DNA of 29,823 nt from a virus. Positions 2,205 through 19,033 of the stretch are shown piece after piece (within the stretch, counting starts at the first letter, position 1; each line of letters begins with the position of its first letter). The notes under the pieces were generated by a model that made no database searches, was not told where the DNA came from, and saw nothing but the letters and a program-made list of their open reading frames with translations. The stretch lies in the IMG/VR virus record IMGVR_UViG_3300037137_002469, positions 1-29,823 of that record. One strand, given 5' to 3'. The position numbers and the translations under genes were made by a program.

Positions 2205-2378
2205 TCAGCTCCTCTCGCCGACGACGACGTCGCCGTCCATGCAGATGTGCCGGAAGTCCGGCATGTCCGCGCCGCTGCGCCAGATCTTCAGCTCGCTCCC
2301 CGACAGCGGCGCGAGCACGTGGCCCGCGGCGCGCAGCTTGCGGGTGTACTCCGCCTGCAGCTCCTTGCCCTTGTTCAT
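2205..2378 (-). CDS. Hypothetical small protein, first gene behind a repeated promoter
   Basis: 57 residues from ATG 2378, which has AGAGGAG seven bases upstream. An in-frame alternative start at 2405 would add MSKSERSTE; it lies exactly six bases after a -10-like GACAAT and could be a leaderless start. The same nine-residue extension, encoded by an identical DNA stretch, precedes the gene at 3876, so it is either a shared N-terminus or a shared 5' leader. The C-terminus (PDFRHICMDGDVVVG) looks beta-stranded. No family recognised. Confidence 0.6.
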   Translation of the reverse strand: MNKGKELQAEYTRKLRAAGHVLAPLSGSELKIWRSGADMPDFRHICMDGDVVVGERS

Positions 2379-2405
2379 CTCCGTGCTCCTCTCGCTCTTG
2401 CTCAT

Positions 2406-2451
2406 GCTCTTATTGTCGGCCAGGAGGCGGCCCCGGCACACCGGCCGAAGG
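2406..2451 (-). promoter_or_regulatory. Candidate phage promoter, copy 1
   Basis: On the minus strand a box CCTTCGGCCGGT (2451-2440) is followed after exactly 22 bases by GACAAT (2417-2412), then AAGAGC and an ATG at 2405. Two other intergenic regions share the box, the 22-base gap and the six-base gap to ATG. A normal -35 hexamer is not visible at 17 bases. The spacing puts the likely start of transcription on or next to the ATG. Confidence 0.6.
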
Positions 2452-2472: not shown

Positions 2473-2928
2473 TCAGCCTAGGACCTCTGACCTGTGCCGC
2501 CTGCAGAGCGGGACCTTCCCCGCCCTGTCCGGGACGACGGTCAGCCCGGCGGCCTCGGCGAGCAGCGGCTCGGCAGTCCCGGCGTAGGTCCGGCCGCAGG
2601 CCTCGACGCTGCAGAGCCTGACGGTCCTGCCCTTGCCCCCGCCGATCCTGACGCCGGAGCCCGGCGCTGCGGCCGGACGGAGGGACTCGGCGGGGAACGA
2701 GTACGCGCCGCTCGTGGTCTTCCCAGAGCGCGCGTCAGCCTCCACGAGGTACACGCGTGCAGACTGGCCAGAGTAGTCCCTCGGCCACGGGAACGAGTCA
2801 CCGAGGCCCACGCCCTCGCCAGCACGCTTCGGCTCGACGGGCCGCTCCCAGTGGCTGAACGACCAGAGCGCCTCGGGATCGACCCATGGCAGATCGCACA
2901 CCAGCACCTGTCCGCGCTCGAAGTCCAT
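2473..2928 (-). CDS. Hypothetical protein with C-terminal Cys/His cluster
   Basis: 151 residues starting MDFERGQVLV; the ATG overlaps the upstream TGA as TGATG, with GGAGGAG upstream. The first half has a DLPWVDPEALW segment and a Gly-rich loop. The C-terminal part carries C106, C111, C142 and H145 (C-x4-C...C-x2-H), a possible zinc site. It is the last gene before promoter copy 1. No family recognised. Confidence 0.65.
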   Translation of the reverse strand: MDFERGQVLVCDLPWVDPEALWSFSHWERPVEPKRAGEGVGLGDSFPWPRDYSGQSARVYLVEADARSGKTTSGAYSFPAESLRPAAAPGSGVRIGGGKGRTVRLCSVEACGRTYAGTAEPLLAEAAGLTVVPDRAGKVPLCRRHRSEVLG

Positions 2929-3721: not shown

Positions 3722-3879
3722 CGTGTGCCCCTTCCCTTCAGGTACCCAGGCGCGCGACGGTCGTCGACGCCTTCCAGCTCGGCCTTCTCCAGCAGCAGCT
3801 CTACGTAGTCGACGCGCTTGTCCGCGAACCGCGGGTTGAACGCGACCGCCCACTTGGCTGCGATCTCGCGGCGCGTCAT
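3718..3879 (-). CDS. Hypothetical small basic protein
   Basis: 53 residues, MTRREIAAKW at the N-terminus and a Lys/Arg-rich end. Start at 3879 and stop both sit in ATGA overlaps. Residues 24-36 (DYVELLLEKAELE) form a likely helix. No function assigned. Confidence 0.6.
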   Translation of the reverse strand: MTRREIAAKWAVAFNPRFADKRVDYVELLLEKAELEGVDDRRAPGYLKGRGTR

Positions 3880-4040
3880 CGTGCGCCGGCCTTCGCGTAC
3901 ATGTCCTGCTGGTGGCTGCAGTGCTTCTCGCCCTTGCAGAGTGCCGCGCACTCGTCGTCGCATGGGCCACAGTTCGTGGTGGGGGTGCCTGGGTGGCCCT
4001 GGCTGCAGTAGTACTTGGCCTTCCGTGTCTCGGTCTTCAT
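3876..4040 (-). CDS. Cys/His-rich small protein
   Basis: 54 residues from ATG 4040, which has AGAGGAG seven bases upstream. Six Cys and several His (C12, H16, C24, C27, C31, C35, H40, C41, H43) in about 30 residues suggest one or two bound metal ions. An in-frame start at 4067 would add MSKSERSTE and lies six bases after the -10 box GATAAT, so a leaderless start is possible. It is the first gene behind promoter copy 2. Confidence 0.6.
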   Translation of the reverse strand: MKTETRKAKYYCSQGHPGTPTTNCGPCDDECAALCKGEKHCSHQQDMYAKAGAR

Positions 4041-4067
4041 CTCCGTGCTCCTCTCGCTCTTGCTCAT

Positions 4068-4138
4068 GCCTTTATTATCGGCCATGGCGGGGGAGGAGCA
4101 TACCGGTCGAAGGGCTAGTTCTTGGTCCAGGCCGAAGG
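4068..4138 (-). promoter_or_regulatory. Candidate phage promoter, copy 2, with tandem box
   Basis: CCTTCGACCGGT (4113-4102), 22 bases, GATAAT (4079-4074), AAAGGC, then ATG at 4067. A second box, CCTTCGGCCT (4138-4129), lies 25 bases further upstream. The region after the -10 is identical to copy 1 for about 30 bases. The tandem boxes look like operator or activator sites. Confidence 0.6.
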
Positions 4139-14115: not shown

Positions 14116-14220
14116 CTGCTTCTCCCTTCGTCGTCTCGCGGCGCTCTCGGCCGCGCGCGTAGTTGCTGCCCCAGTACGTCCTGCCGTGCTCGACGCCCTC
14201 CTCGCGAAGTACCTCAGCTG
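14099..14220 (-). pseudogene. Possible 3' remnant of a gene cut by the duplication
   Basis: From the edge of the duplicated segment a frame reads AEVLREEGVEHGRTYWGSN and on to a basic end, stopping at a TGA inside the DUF932 start. The text is protein-like, yet no ATG, GTG or TTG opens it, and upstream it merges into an out-of-frame reading of the duplicate. It may be the C-terminal end of a gene whose front was replaced. Chance is possible. Confidence 0.3.
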
Positions 14221-14411
14221 TCGCCGGAGACCAGGTCGCCGCCCAGCGGCAGGACGATCCCGTCGTACTCCACGCCCGCTAGGCGCTCGAAGAACATCCT
14301 GGTCCTCTTCTCCGCGATGGCCAGGTCGTACGCGTTGTACCCGCCGAGCTCGCCCGGCTGGACGACCTCGCCGAAGTGCGCGTCCGAGAAGAAGGCGACC
14401 AGGGCGCTCAC
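14214..14411 (-). CDS. Truncated metallophosphoesterase copy (65 residues)
   Basis: GTG 14411 overlaps the upstream TGA (GTGA) and opens SALVAFFSDAHFGEV, continuing to GGDLVSGDS and a stop. It matches residues 88-156 of the full-length enzyme at 17540-18646 exactly, minus eight residues (TITVARHY). Motifs I (D10, H12) and II (GGD) are present, but GNH and the two His motifs are missing, so catalysis is unlikely. It may be decaying or serve as a separate fragment. Confidence 0.6.
   Translation of the reverse strand: MSALVAFFSDAHFGEVVQPGELGGYNAYDLAIAEKRTRMFFERLAGVEYDGIVLPLGGDLVSGDS
14219..14402. repeat. Partial direct duplication, copy A (184 nt)
   Basis: Identical base for base to 18178-18242 plus 18267-18385; the 24 bases at 18243-18266 are missing here, at the junction after 14283. 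Same orientation as copy B, about 4 kb away. Perfect identity implies a very recent duplication, ongoing gene conversion, or an assembly artefact. Confidence 0.9.
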
Positions 14412-15618: not shown

Positions 15619-15863
15619 CGTCCTGCCTCCTCGTCCACTACCCTGGCCATGCCCGCATCTTCCAGCTCCGCGAAGAGCCGCCTGCTACTGCCCTCCGTGT
15701 GGAGCGCGCTCTCCGACCAGTTCCATGCCCGCTGCGCCAGCTCCTCTCGGAACGATCCCTTGTCGGGAGAGTTGTTCCAGGAGTCCTCGCGCAGTGCCTG
15801 CTCCAGCTCCCTCCACGTCGCGGCGGAGAGAACGGCGCCGTCTGCGAAGATCACCGTCGCCAT
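15615..15863 (-). CDS. Hypothetical protein between amidoligase and amidotransferase
   Basis: 82 residues from ATG 15863, one base after the amidoligase stop; its own stop overlaps the amidotransferase start (ATGA). MATVIFADGAVLSAATW suggests two short strands, followed by a helical, Trp-containing middle. The position between the two enzymes suggests a helper or small substrate protein. No family recognised. Confidence 0.6.
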   Translation of the reverse strand: MATVIFADGAVLSAATWRELEQALREDSWNNSPDKGSFREELAQRAWNWSESALHTEGSSRRLFAELEDAGMARVVDEEAGR

Positions 15864-15864
15864 C

Positions 15865-16830
15865 TCAGCTCACCTCTTCCAGGACCGAGGTCGCCGCGTC
15901 CATCTGGGACTGCAGGCTCTCGATGCGCGCCGCGACCGTCGCCCGCGTCTCGCCGCTCGTCTCGAACCTGAGCAGCCAGCTCGCATCCGTCGTCGTCAAG
16001 CCGAAGGGCTCGAGGTCGACGAGCATCTGGGTGAGGTCGGTGCCGCTGACCGTCGCGCTTGCGAGAGCCGCTGCGAAGAGCGCCTGGCCGAAGTGAATCC
16101 ACGCGCGGATCTTGTTGAAGTTCGTCGTCCCGGCGTGGCACCGCATCTCGACGCTGCCGTGGCGCGGGTAGGCGTGGAGGTTGATGTTGCCGCGCGGTCC
16201 GACCGAGCCGATCTCGCGGAGGTTGCGTGCCCTCAGCAGTGCACTCACCTGGTTGGACGCCCAGCCGCCGCAGTAGTGGTTGTCCCGGCGGCTCGGTGCG
16301 ACCATCCGCCACACGAGGTCCTGACGCTCGACGAAGGCGACGACCTGGGTGCGGATCTGGTCGACGTCCATGTTTCGCATGTCGTGGTGGACGTGGAGGC
16401 CTGCGCTGCTGTCGACCGTCGCTCCAACGGAGTTGAGCGCCGCGCACACCGTCTCCAGCTGGCGGAGTCCCGCCTCGCCGCGGAGCTTGGGGCTGACCAG
16501 CTCGAGGTGCTCGCCGCGAACGGAGCTGTCGTACTTGAGCTCCCACTTCGATCCGTTGGTGCTCGCGTAGGCGTAGCGGTCGACGACGTCGATGCCCGCC
16601 TGCAGCAGCGCGCTCATCACCAGGCGACGGTCCGGGCCTGTCATCTCAAGCTCTACGCCGAAGGCGCGACCTTGAGCGGTGCCAGCGTCGCGGCGCTGCG
16701 TGCCGTTCGTGCGGTTGTAGCGGAGGCGGTAGCACGGCTTGCAGTAGTTCACGAAGCGGCCGCCGCTCATGTAGAAGTGTGCGCGATCCTCCGGGAGGCT
16801 CTGTCCGCATCCCCTGCAAGTTCTCCTCAT
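15865..16830 (-). CDS. Amidoligase (Amidoligase_2 family) with N-terminal zinc ribbon
   Basis: 321 residues from ATG 16830, behind GAAGGAG and coupled by ATGA to a short upstream reading frame. Residues 5-33 form a ribbon (CRGC...CKPC). From residue 57 the text follows the COOH-NH2 ligase family related to glutamine synthetase: FGVELEM (57-63), HLELVSPKLRG (108-118), SSAGLHVHHD (141-150), NINLHAYPRHGSVEMRCHAGT (broken across 215-235) and an IRAWIHFGQAL helix. These supply the Glu, His and Arg residues that bind ATP-Mg. Family members join a carboxylate to an amine; in phages the substrates are not known. The amidotransferase two genes on fits the neighbourhood described for this family. Confidence 0.85.
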   Translation of the reverse strand: MRRTCRGCGQSLPEDRAHFYMSGGRFVNYCKPCYRLRYNRTNGTQRRDAGTAQGRAFGVELEMTGPDRRLVMSALLQAGIDVVDRYAYASTNGSKWELKYDSSVRGEHLELVSPKLRGEAGLRQLETVCAALNSVGATVDSSAGLHVHHDMRNMDVDQIRTQVVAFVERQDLVWRMVAPSRRDNHYCGGWASNQVSALLRARNLREIGSVGPRGNINLHAYPRHGSVEMRCHAGTTNFNKIRAWIHFGQALFAAALASATVSGTDLTQMLVDLEPFGLTTTDASWLLRFETSGETRATVAARIESLQSQMDAATSVLEEVS

Positions 16831-16874
16831 CCTGCTGCTCCTTCTCGCCTTGAGCGGCCCCACGCCGCTCTCAT
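16827..16874 (-). CDS. Possible leader peptide before the amidoligase
   Basis: Fifteen codons, MRAAWGRSRREGAAG, from an ATG that lies six bases after the -10 box, ending in a TGA that overlaps the amidoligase ATG. If the transcript is leaderless this would be its first reading frame and would deliver ribosomes to the amidoligase start. The codons span a 7-bp hairpin at 16852-16870. Confidence 0.4.
   Translation of the reverse strand: MRAAWGRSRREGAAG
16852..16870 (-). other. Hairpin in the amidoligase leader
   Basis: GAGCGGC and GCCGCTC pair perfectly around a five-base loop, between the promoter and the amidoligase ribosome site. No U-run follows. It could slow ribosomes or be a simple mRNA end structure. 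Confidence 0.45.
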
Positions 16875-16944
16875 GCCTTTATTATCGACCCCCGGCACCG
16901 TGCAGAGCACCGGCCAAAGGGCTGTTCTCGCTCTAGGCCAAAGG
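16875..16944 (-). promoter_or_regulatory. Candidate phage promoter, copy 3, with tandem box
   Basis: CCTTTGGCCGGT (16920-16909), 22 bases, GATAAT (16886-16881), AAAGGC, ATG at 16874: the same geometry as copies 1 and 2. A second box CCTTTGGCCT (16944-16935) lies 24 bases upstream. It should drive the amidoligase-to-polymerase operon. The remaining bases to 16966 hold nothing else clear. Confidence 0.6.
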
Positions 16945-17346: not shown

Positions 17347-17546
17347 GCCCCCTCCTCCTTGACGAAGATGATGCCCTGACCCGCGCAGGCCGGGCAGCTG
17401 TACAGCCGCATCGTCGACGCGACCCACTCCCGCTGGTCTCCCGCGACCCATGGCGGCTTCTGCGTCGTGCCGTGGCCGCCGCAGACTGGGCAGGTCGTGA
17501 GGCGCTGCCCCGACTGCGGCCAGGACGTGGGCGCTATGGTCACCAT
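17343..17546 (-). CDS. Small protein with two DnaJ-type CxxCxGxG motifs
   Basis: 67 residues from ATG 17546 (a GTG at 17543 is an alternative and would give a GTGA overlap). CPVCGGHG (19-26) and CPACAGQG (51-58) match the repeat unit of the DnaJ Cys-rich zinc domain, so one zinc ion is probably bound by the four Cys. No J domain is present. Such small free-standing proteins occur in phages without known function. Confidence 0.65.
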   Translation of the reverse strand: MVTIAPTSWPQSGQRLTTCPVCGGHGTTQKPPWVAGDQREWVASTMRLYSCPACAGQGIIFVKEEGA

Positions 17547-18646
17547 CCCTCCTCGGACCGCTTCGTGCAGATGACGGGCGCCGTCACGGTGATCCCGTGC
17601 TCCGGCGTCACGACCATCAACGCCTGCTGCGCCGGCTCTGGCGCGAACTGTCCGTCTGACGCGTACTCGTCGTACCCCTTCAGCGAGCCGTTCATGACGA
17701 AGCCCTGCGTGTACGCGGGGATGAACTGGTGGAAGTGACCGTACAGCCCGTACCTGAACTGTCGACCCATCTCCTGGCGCTTCTTGGTCTTGCGCAGGTT
17801 GCCCCGCTTGACCGGCCCGAACGATCCGATCTCGCTCGTCCCGTTGAACCTGAGGTTGTCGCCGTGCTCCATCGAGAAGACGTGGCCGTAGACATCGAAG
17901 TCCACGTCCGTCGACTCGGGGATGTCGAAGGTGACCGCCTGCTCGTCTCGCAGCGTCACGGCCAGCAGCCGCGCGACGTGCGTGTCCGCGTTGTTCTCGG
18001 ACCGCTTCTTGTGGCGCGGCTTCTTGGAGTTGCGCCCGTGGTTGCCCGGCGCGCTGACGACGTGGACCCGCCCGAACTCCTCCGCGAGCATCTCGATACC
18101 GGCCTGCAGCCACGGCAGGCACGTCTCTACGGTCCTGAGCGTCGACTGCTCGTTGGTCTCGATCAGCTCGTCGTGGATGTCGCCGGAGACCAGGTCGCCG
18201 CCCAGCGGCAGGACGATCCCGTCGTACTCCACGCCCGCTAGGTAGTGGCGGGCGACGGTGATGGTGCGCTCGAAGAACATCCTGGTCCTCTTCTCCGCGA
18301 TGGCCAGGTCGTACGCGTTGTACCCGCCGAGCTCGCCCGGCTGGACGACCTCGCCGAAGTGCGCGTCCGAGAAGAAGGCGACCAGAGTGCCGTGGTGCTG
18401 CCCGTCGTCCCTGACCTCGCCGAGCCACTCCGGCCTGTCAGAGAAGTCCCGCCTGTACAGCGCCAGCTCGGTTGCCAGCTCGTCGGCCTCGGCAGTCGAG
18501 TCGCGAAGCTGCCGCGCCACGCTGTCCTTGTCTCGCTTGGCAGAGTTGGCCAGCTCCCTGAGCCTGAAGTTCTGCTCCCTCAGCTGCTGCTCGGTCGCCG
18601 CCGCGCCCAGCTCCTCGATAGCCTTGCCGAAGTCTCCCTGTACCAT
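17540..18646 (-). CDS. Calcineurin-like metallophosphoesterase with coiled-coil N-terminus
   Basis: 368 residues from ATG 18646, directly after the upstream stop. Residues 1-75 are a charged coiled-coil-like region. The phosphoesterase domain shows D94-A-H96, GGD (149-151), GNH (201-203), H261 and GHFH (303-306), the complete two-metal site. Relatives include Mre11/SbcD-like DNA nucleases and other phosphatases; the substrate is not evident. Part of the gene (18178-18385) is duplicated at 14219-14402. Confidence 0.88.
   Translation of the reverse strand: MVQGDFGKAIEELGAAATEQQLREQNFRLRELANSAKRDKDSVARQLRDSTAEADELATELALYRRDFSDRPEWLGEVRDDGQHHGTLVAFFSDAHFGEVVQPGELGGYNAYDLAIAEKRTRMFFERTITVARHYLAGVEYDGIVLPLGGDLVSGDIHDELIETNEQSTLRTVETCLPWLQAGIEMLAEEFGRVHVVSAPGNHGRNSKKPRHKKRSENNADTHVARLLAVTLRDEQAVTFDIPESTDVDFDVYGHVFSMEHGDNLRFNGTSEIGSFGPVKRGNLRKTKKRQEMGRQFRYGLYGHFHQFIPAYTQGFVMNGSLKGYDEYASDGQFAPEPAQQALMVVTPEHGITVTAPVICTKRSEEGW
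18178..18385. repeat. Partial direct duplication, copy B, inside the phosphoesterase gene
   Basis: Source-like copy of the 184-nt repeat. It encodes the first two phosphoesterase motifs and contains 24 extra bases (18243-18266) absent from copy A. Confidence 0.9.
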
Positions 18647-18902: not shown

Positions 18903-18997
18903 GCCTCTCGCTCGTGGGAGCCATATTGTAACCCGGTGGCTGGCCCGCAGCGCTTCTTACACGGTCCTACCACCGGCCCTTATTGTGGCCAAGGGCC
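18903..18997 (-). promoter_or_regulatory. Junction between late and middle genes: hairpin and weak promoter signals
   Basis: In the 138-base gap 18896-19033 the minus strand holds GGCCCTT/AAGGGCC (18997-18991 and 18981-18975), a 7-bp hairpin whose loop and arm include GGCCACAATAAGGGC, close to the -10 region of the repeated promoter. Further on lies TACAAT (18930-18925) 30 bases before the GTG of the next gene. No T-run makes the hairpin a classical terminator. The 22-base-spaced box is absent. Confidence 0.35.
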
Positions 18998-19033
18998 CGG
19001 GAACGGATCGCGCTCCCGAGCCCTCGCCCTCTC

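Follow-up and report, generated by a model that had tools for sequence, protein, structure and literature searches.

Little is known about the promoter classes that uncultivated phages of high G+C content use. The stretch of DNA analysed here (the window, an IMG/VR virus record of 29,823 bases with about 69% G+C) carries nearly all its genes on the minus strand, among them genes for a Prim-Pol primase, a thymidylate synthase, an amidoligase, an exonuclease and the tail. A near-identity search with the window found no named phage close to it at the DNA level. Three gaps of the window had been proposed to share a box, a spacer of 22 bases, the hexamer GAYAAT and, six bases further on, an ATG at which the mRNA would begin. 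This raises two questions: which protein recognizes such putative promoters, and where does translation of the genes behind them start?

The pattern CCTTYGRCCGGT-N22-GAYAAT has three exact matches in the window (2412-2451, 4074-4113 and 16881-16920), where none is expected from 100 dinucleotide shuffles. All three lie on the minus strand, which the original prediction had left unstated. An ATG follows six bases past each hexamer (2403-2405, 4065-4067 and 16872-16874). The copies at 2.4, 4.1 and 16.9 kb are called A, B and C, and the A of the ATG is numbered +1. Read 5' to 3', they run ...GACCTTCGGCCGGT-N22-GACAATAAGAGCATGAGC (A), ...GCCCTTCGACCGGT-N22-GATAATAAAGGCATGAGC (B) and ...GCCCTTTGGCCGGT-N22-GATAATAAAGGCATGAGA (C). 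From the ATG on, A and B have about 32 identical nt before they diverge, which points to a common cassette, with C being independent. Because of this partial duplication, the window holds about two independent instances rather than three. The shared architecture is thus present in all three gaps, and the reading frames are as predicted: the ATG is in frame in A and B (MSKSERSTEM), and in C it opens a 15-codon frame (MRAAWGRSRREGAAG) whose TGA overlaps the ATG of the amidoligase. A further copy of the box, in a distal position, had been missed; it reads CCTTCGGCCTGG, CCTTTGGCCTAG or, in degenerate form, GTCCTAGGCT. The features of the three putative promoters are as follows.

2475-2484, minus strand: distal box of A, GTCCTAGGCT, centred at about -73.5
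2440-2451, minus strand: proximal box of A, CCTTCGGCCGGT, -46 to -35
2412-2420, minus strand: extended -10 of A, GCCGACAAT
2403-2405, minus strand: ATG at the predicted +1 of A, in frame, MSKSERSTEM
2386-2390, minus strand: Shine-Dalgarno sequence AGGAG of A, 7 nt before the ATG at 2378
2205-2378, minus strand: 57-aa open reading frame behind promoter A, with Shine-Dalgarno-led start
4124-4133, minus strand: distal box of B, GGCCTGGACC inside CCTTCGGCCTGGACC, centred at about -60.5
4102-4113, minus strand: proximal box of B, CCTTCGACCGGT
4074-4082, minus strand: extended -10 of B, GCCGATAAT
4065-4067, minus strand: ATG at the predicted +1 of B, in frame
4048-4052, minus strand: Shine-Dalgarno sequence AGGAG of B, 7 nt before the ATG at 4040
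3876-4040, minus strand: 54-aa open reading frame behind promoter B, with Shine-Dalgarno-led start
16930-16939, minus strand: distal box of C, GGCCTAGAGC inside CCTTTGGCCTAGAGC, centred at about -59.5
16909-16920, minus strand: proximal box of C, CCTTTGGCCGGT
16881-16889, minus strand: extended -10 of C, GTCGATAAT
16827-16874, minus strand: 15-codon open reading frame from the +1 ATG of C, with a TGA that overlaps the start codon of the amidoligase gene (ATGA)
16852-16870, minus strand: 5' stem-loop GAGCGGC-GUGGG-GCCGCUC in the leader of C, also in R88998 and shorter in R39563 (sites of the relative R, see below)
16838-16843, minus strand: Shine-Dalgarno sequence AAGGAG of C, 7 nt before the ATG at 16830
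15865-16830, minus strand: amidoligase gene (PF12224) behind promoter C

A close relative of the window, here called R (IMGVR_UViG_3300036760_001167, a viral contig of 106,510 bp), was found via the exonuclease, which is 82% identical. The search of relatives that the original prediction had suggested yielded six further sites in R (39563, 41963, 43441, 88998, 91705 and 94503), all on the minus strand, and two of them form orthologous pairs with window sites. C and R88998 both precede amidoligases (70-71% identical), and A and R39563 are positional orthologues whose upstream neighbour genes are 64% identical. The R sites precede non-structural genes or an apparently noncoding stretch, and all six hexamers carry the same upstream architecture, whole or in part. 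A matrix trained on the window found family sites as its four best matches in R (18.2-28.3 bits), and a fifth family site ranked sixth. Conversely, a matrix trained on R scored the three window sites at 21.7-30.4, the next match at 11.6 and the maximum of 30 simulated genomes at 16.8. Between box and -10 element a spacing of 22 was sharply preferred over the range of 14-30; R39563 fits 21 slightly better than 22, and R94503, which has no clear proximal box, is the exception in the family.

A strict pattern search of viral contigs gave no match. The looser search for the full architecture in all viral contigs returned R with five copies and three AT-rich contigs; the latter were rejected as chance matches, so that no credible match outside R was obtained. 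Two short fragments also found via the exonuclease (L005 and L006, 65%) contained no promoter site, and none of 77 further, more distant exonuclease relatives had a family site. Blastn with promoter C gave no match and with R43441 only partial matches (E=0.4), and a search of genome contigs returned only distant loci of 33-43% identity. Among the contigs and relatives searched the sites thus occur only in the window and R, which confines the family to this lineage. Judged by these comparisons, the family of putative promoters is real, conserved and lineage-specific and is carried by two genomes only. It is new, but the kind of promoter is already known. An archaeal TATA/BRE reading was dropped, as the WhiB protein of R, its mycobacteriophage-type families and the use of Shine-Dalgarno sequences point to an actinobacterial host. 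For a protein taken for DNA polymerase A no named relative was obtained, and the gene chosen was probably not the right one.

Over the nine sites two blocks of columns are conserved, the proximal box from -46 to -35 and the -10 element from -15 to -7, which in full reads GCCGATAAT and so is longer than the hexamer first described. The box had been placed about five bases upstream of a normal -35; it actually abuts the canonical -35 position or overlaps it by one base, and its conservation extends weakly to -31. The spacer from -29 to -16 is not conserved, positions -6 to -3 are purine-rich, and the start region favours C at -1, A at +1 and T at +2. Compared with a TATAAT-like -10, the sites have an invariant A at -11 and an invariant T at -7, but G at -12 is invariant as well; in R the hexamer served as the key with which the sites were first collected, so that the search itself accounts for part of its invariance there. 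A TTGACA-like -35 at 16-18 bp was found in none of the nine sites, the best match being two to three of six positions. The distal box has the sequence GRCCTAGGCC or one derived from it. Its centre lies at -59.5 in C, at -60.5 in B and between -70.5 and -73.5 in the remaining seven sites; the two positions are about one helical turn apart. Since the geometry is fixed, is conserved in R and lacks a sigma-70 type -35, a phage-lineage activator, or else a sigma factor, is likely. The original prediction had left the choice between these two open.

We considered first that an alternative sigma factor, either phage-encoded or a host factor of the FliA/WhiG type, might use the box as its -35 element, with no need for a separate activator. 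The -10 element GCCGATAAT, exact in seven of the nine sites and with one change in the other two, matches the GCCGATAA of flagellar/WhiG (sigma-28) promoters (PMC8325347), and the invariant G at -12 stands where sigma-70 prefers T. The conserved SCGGTRYKC extends into the -35 slot, and the N15 between it and GCCGATAA is the FliA spacing, and the weak conservation to -31 could also be explained by a sigma -35. Unlike FliA/WhiG promoters, however, none of the nine sites has TAAA in the -35 slot 15 bp upstream, and searches of R and the window, both of which may be incomplete records, gave no match to Sigma70 region 2 or region 4. Moreover, the box is variable in its upstream half, and a helically phased distal box is not explained by sigma alone. 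With no TAAA -35 in nine sites and no sigma family found, an activator is preferred; the alternative sigma factor is the main rival and appears unlikely. Sigma-28 promoters, too, can respond to an activator, the example being the CRP-activated aer promoter (PMC2859248, PMC8325347).

Second, the boxes could be operators of a repressor or of a nucleoid or partition protein, similar to stoperators, in front of otherwise constitutive promoters. The distal box is palindromic, and of the 15 CCTAGG words in R five are at promoters and eight in one mostly intergenic cluster of 0.5 kb (46438-46950; L011:6438-6950), which also contains CCCTTCGATC, CCCGATCG and GGAAAGTCGCC words or repeats. The CCCTTCGATC and CCCGATCG words resemble proximal boxes. 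That 13 of the 15 are at promoters or in this one cluster is most simply explained by a dedicated DNA-binding protein, which speaks equally for the activator proposed below; the cluster is possibly a regulator-binding array, an origin or a partition site. Integrase and RDF families are encoded in R, which is thus probably a temperate phage, as operators would suit. An additional inverted repeat, CTAGTRTG-N3-CACACTAG, is situated just upstream of the distal box at R39563, R41963, R43441 and R88998; it may be the operator of another regulator, and such repeats also speak for repressor binding in this region. Yet the sites lack the consensus -35 that a constitutive promoter would have, the box is located upstream of the -10 and the start instead of over them, and an operator does not need a near-fixed distance. 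Operators are therefore a very unlikely explanation.

We thus favour activator-dependent promoters of one actinophage-like lineage, with the genes downstream of them mostly starting at a Shine-Dalgarno-led ATG, and give this reading a probability of roughly 0.6. A phage-encoded activator would bind the proximal box, where sigma region 4 would otherwise contact the DNA, and also the distal GRCCTAGGCC box at about -60 or -71. From there it would bring RNA polymerase to a GCCGATAAT-type -10 without a usable -35, and transcription would start on an A seven bases past the hexamer. The mRNA would then open with a short leader of 27-44 nt that contains a Shine-Dalgarno sequence and sometimes a 5' stem-loop, and the gene would begin at the ATG behind the Shine-Dalgarno sequence. 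In a host tolerant of leaderless mRNAs a minor second start from the +1 AUG might add an N-terminal extension in A and B and produce the 15-codon coupled frame in C. As the genes behind the promoters are non-structural, we infer early or middle expression.

Several known systems are of this kind. Activators are typically centred near -41.5 at class II and near -61.5 at class I promoters (PMC2859248). A fixed site that abuts or overlaps the -35 region without a good -35, as at class II promoters, was found throughout the family except at R94503. The resemblance to CRP-type class II/III promoters (-41.5, -61.5/-71.5) includes the site over the -35 region, the fixed distance to the -10, the weak -35 and a second upstream site displaced by a helical turn; the proximal centre of about -43.5, the GC-rich site, the phage genome and the fact that the activators are candidates only are different. 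Middle promoters of phage T4 are activated by MotA/AsiA, in which a phage activator box centred at -30 replaces the -35 and the -10 is of the host type. The promoters described here likewise combine a putative phage activator box in place of the -35 with a host-type -10, but the T4 position and sequence differ from theirs. In actinobacteria, WhiB7 binds both region 4 of sigma and a motif directly upstream of the -35 of SigA promoters (PMC3905903). This location, the probable actinobacterial setting and, for R but not for the window fragment, an encoded WhiB protein are common features; the WhiB7 motif, however, is AT-rich and accompanied by a SigA-like -35, whereas here the box is GC-rich, there is no -35 and the role of WhiB is putative.

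R encodes a WhiB protein (PF02467; 31008-31316) with four cysteines and a GIRGG turn, a GerE/LuxR helix-turn-helix protein of 66 aa (50844-51044) and a second, weaker GerE/LuxR match at 49.4-49.7 kb. The WhiB and small GerE/LuxR proteins are candidate activators by their domain matches; the 29.8-kb window fragment has no WhiB or GerE match. The half of the original prediction that named a phage-specific activator is thus likely, and for the half that named a sigma factor no gene was found in the window or R. Sequence alone has in this way yielded a predicted regulon marked by a proximal box, a distal box and GCCGATAAT, two phages that carry it and a short list of candidate regulators.

It had further been proposed that these mRNAs are leaderless, with the ATG six bases past the -10 as the main start in the window. 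Such starts are compatible with either promoter model. An ATG is found at the predicted +1 in five of the nine sites, where base composition predicts about 0.8% per site (P of about 3e-9, or 2e-7 if A and B are counted once). In mycobacteria an ATG or GTG at +1 is necessary and sufficient for leaderless initiation, with C at -1 and a pyrimidine at +2 preferred, and small coupled frames like the ATGA-overlapping one in C have been described (PMC4633059). At R94503 a 50-codon frame opens at +1; it is the only coding site without any Shine-Dalgarno sequence and the only R promoter that looks truly leaderless. On the other hand, part of the ATG excess may reflect the CAT preference of the initiator, and the +1 ATG is absent from both R orthologues (ATA in R88998, the orthologue of C; no ATG in R39563, that of A) as well as from R41963 and R43441. 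In C the frame opened at +1 also differs from that of the gene. Unlike in the mycobacterial leaderless genes, a second ATG preceded at 7 nt by AGGAG or AAGGAG follows 27-44 nt downstream in A, B and C (2378, 4040 and 16830), in the same arrangement as at other genes of this phage, for example at 15863, 15618 and 29806. What A and R39563 share is this downstream Shine-Dalgarno sequence with its ATG(AAC), and not the +1 ATG (AGGAGCACGGAGATGAAC; AGGAGACGCAGGATGAAC).

MSKSERSTEM is consequently best read as leader, the codons GAG AGG AGC of "SER" being the Shine-Dalgarno sequence; where a Shine-Dalgarno sequence lies within a conserved 5' leader, the leader can mimic a conserved protein N-terminus. 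The over-representation of ATG at +1 stands, but leaderless initiation is mostly not upheld for the window and is weakly supported by the starts predicted here. As the main mode of initiation in the window it is improbable. Since the first base of the window transcripts would also begin an AUG, a minor or dual leaderless start, possible in a tolerant host, is more likely. We regard as highly speculative a combined scheme in which a WhiB- or GerE-like phage activator redirects a sigma-28/WhiG-type holoenzyme to promoters without a -35, and transcripts beginning exactly at AUG are translated both leaderless from +1 and from a Shine-Dalgarno-led start 27-44 nt further on.

The leaders of C, R88998 and R39563 begin with a stem-loop. 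For the whole leaders, folding energies of -10.6 to -16.8 kcal/mol were predicted (z-scores -1.5 to -2.9), which is suggestive only.

Directly downstream of R43441 a region of about 1 kb on the minus strand (R 42351-43430; L011:2351-3430) is without convincing open reading frames. Its G+C content is flat over the codon phases, it has internal repeats of 24-29 nt, and it folds far better than 20 shuffled sequences (z -6.8). No match to Rfam and no blastn match to a named phage were found for it. By its predicted folding this region is a candidate for a large structured noncoding RNA under the control of this promoter family.

A palindrome near 19.0 kb of the window (CCTTGGCCACAATAAGGG) was weighed as a possible fourth copy but does not qualify, as its spacing is wrong and it is not scored by the R-trained matrix. 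The gap at 18974-19033 contains the imperfect palindrome GGGCCCTTGGCCACAATAAGGGCC, which does not belong to the promoter family and suggests a terminator-like or regulatory element. In R, 19 tRNA genes (95420-97556; L013:15420-17556) are situated between the exonuclease and the ligase/R94503 region, and the interval between amidoligase and exonuclease comprises about 9 kb, compared with about 0.7 kb in the window. A 65-aa open reading frame of the window (14214-14411) is 76% identical to part of the exonuclease of R and, from this similarity, appears to duplicate part of the exonuclease gene at 17540-18646.
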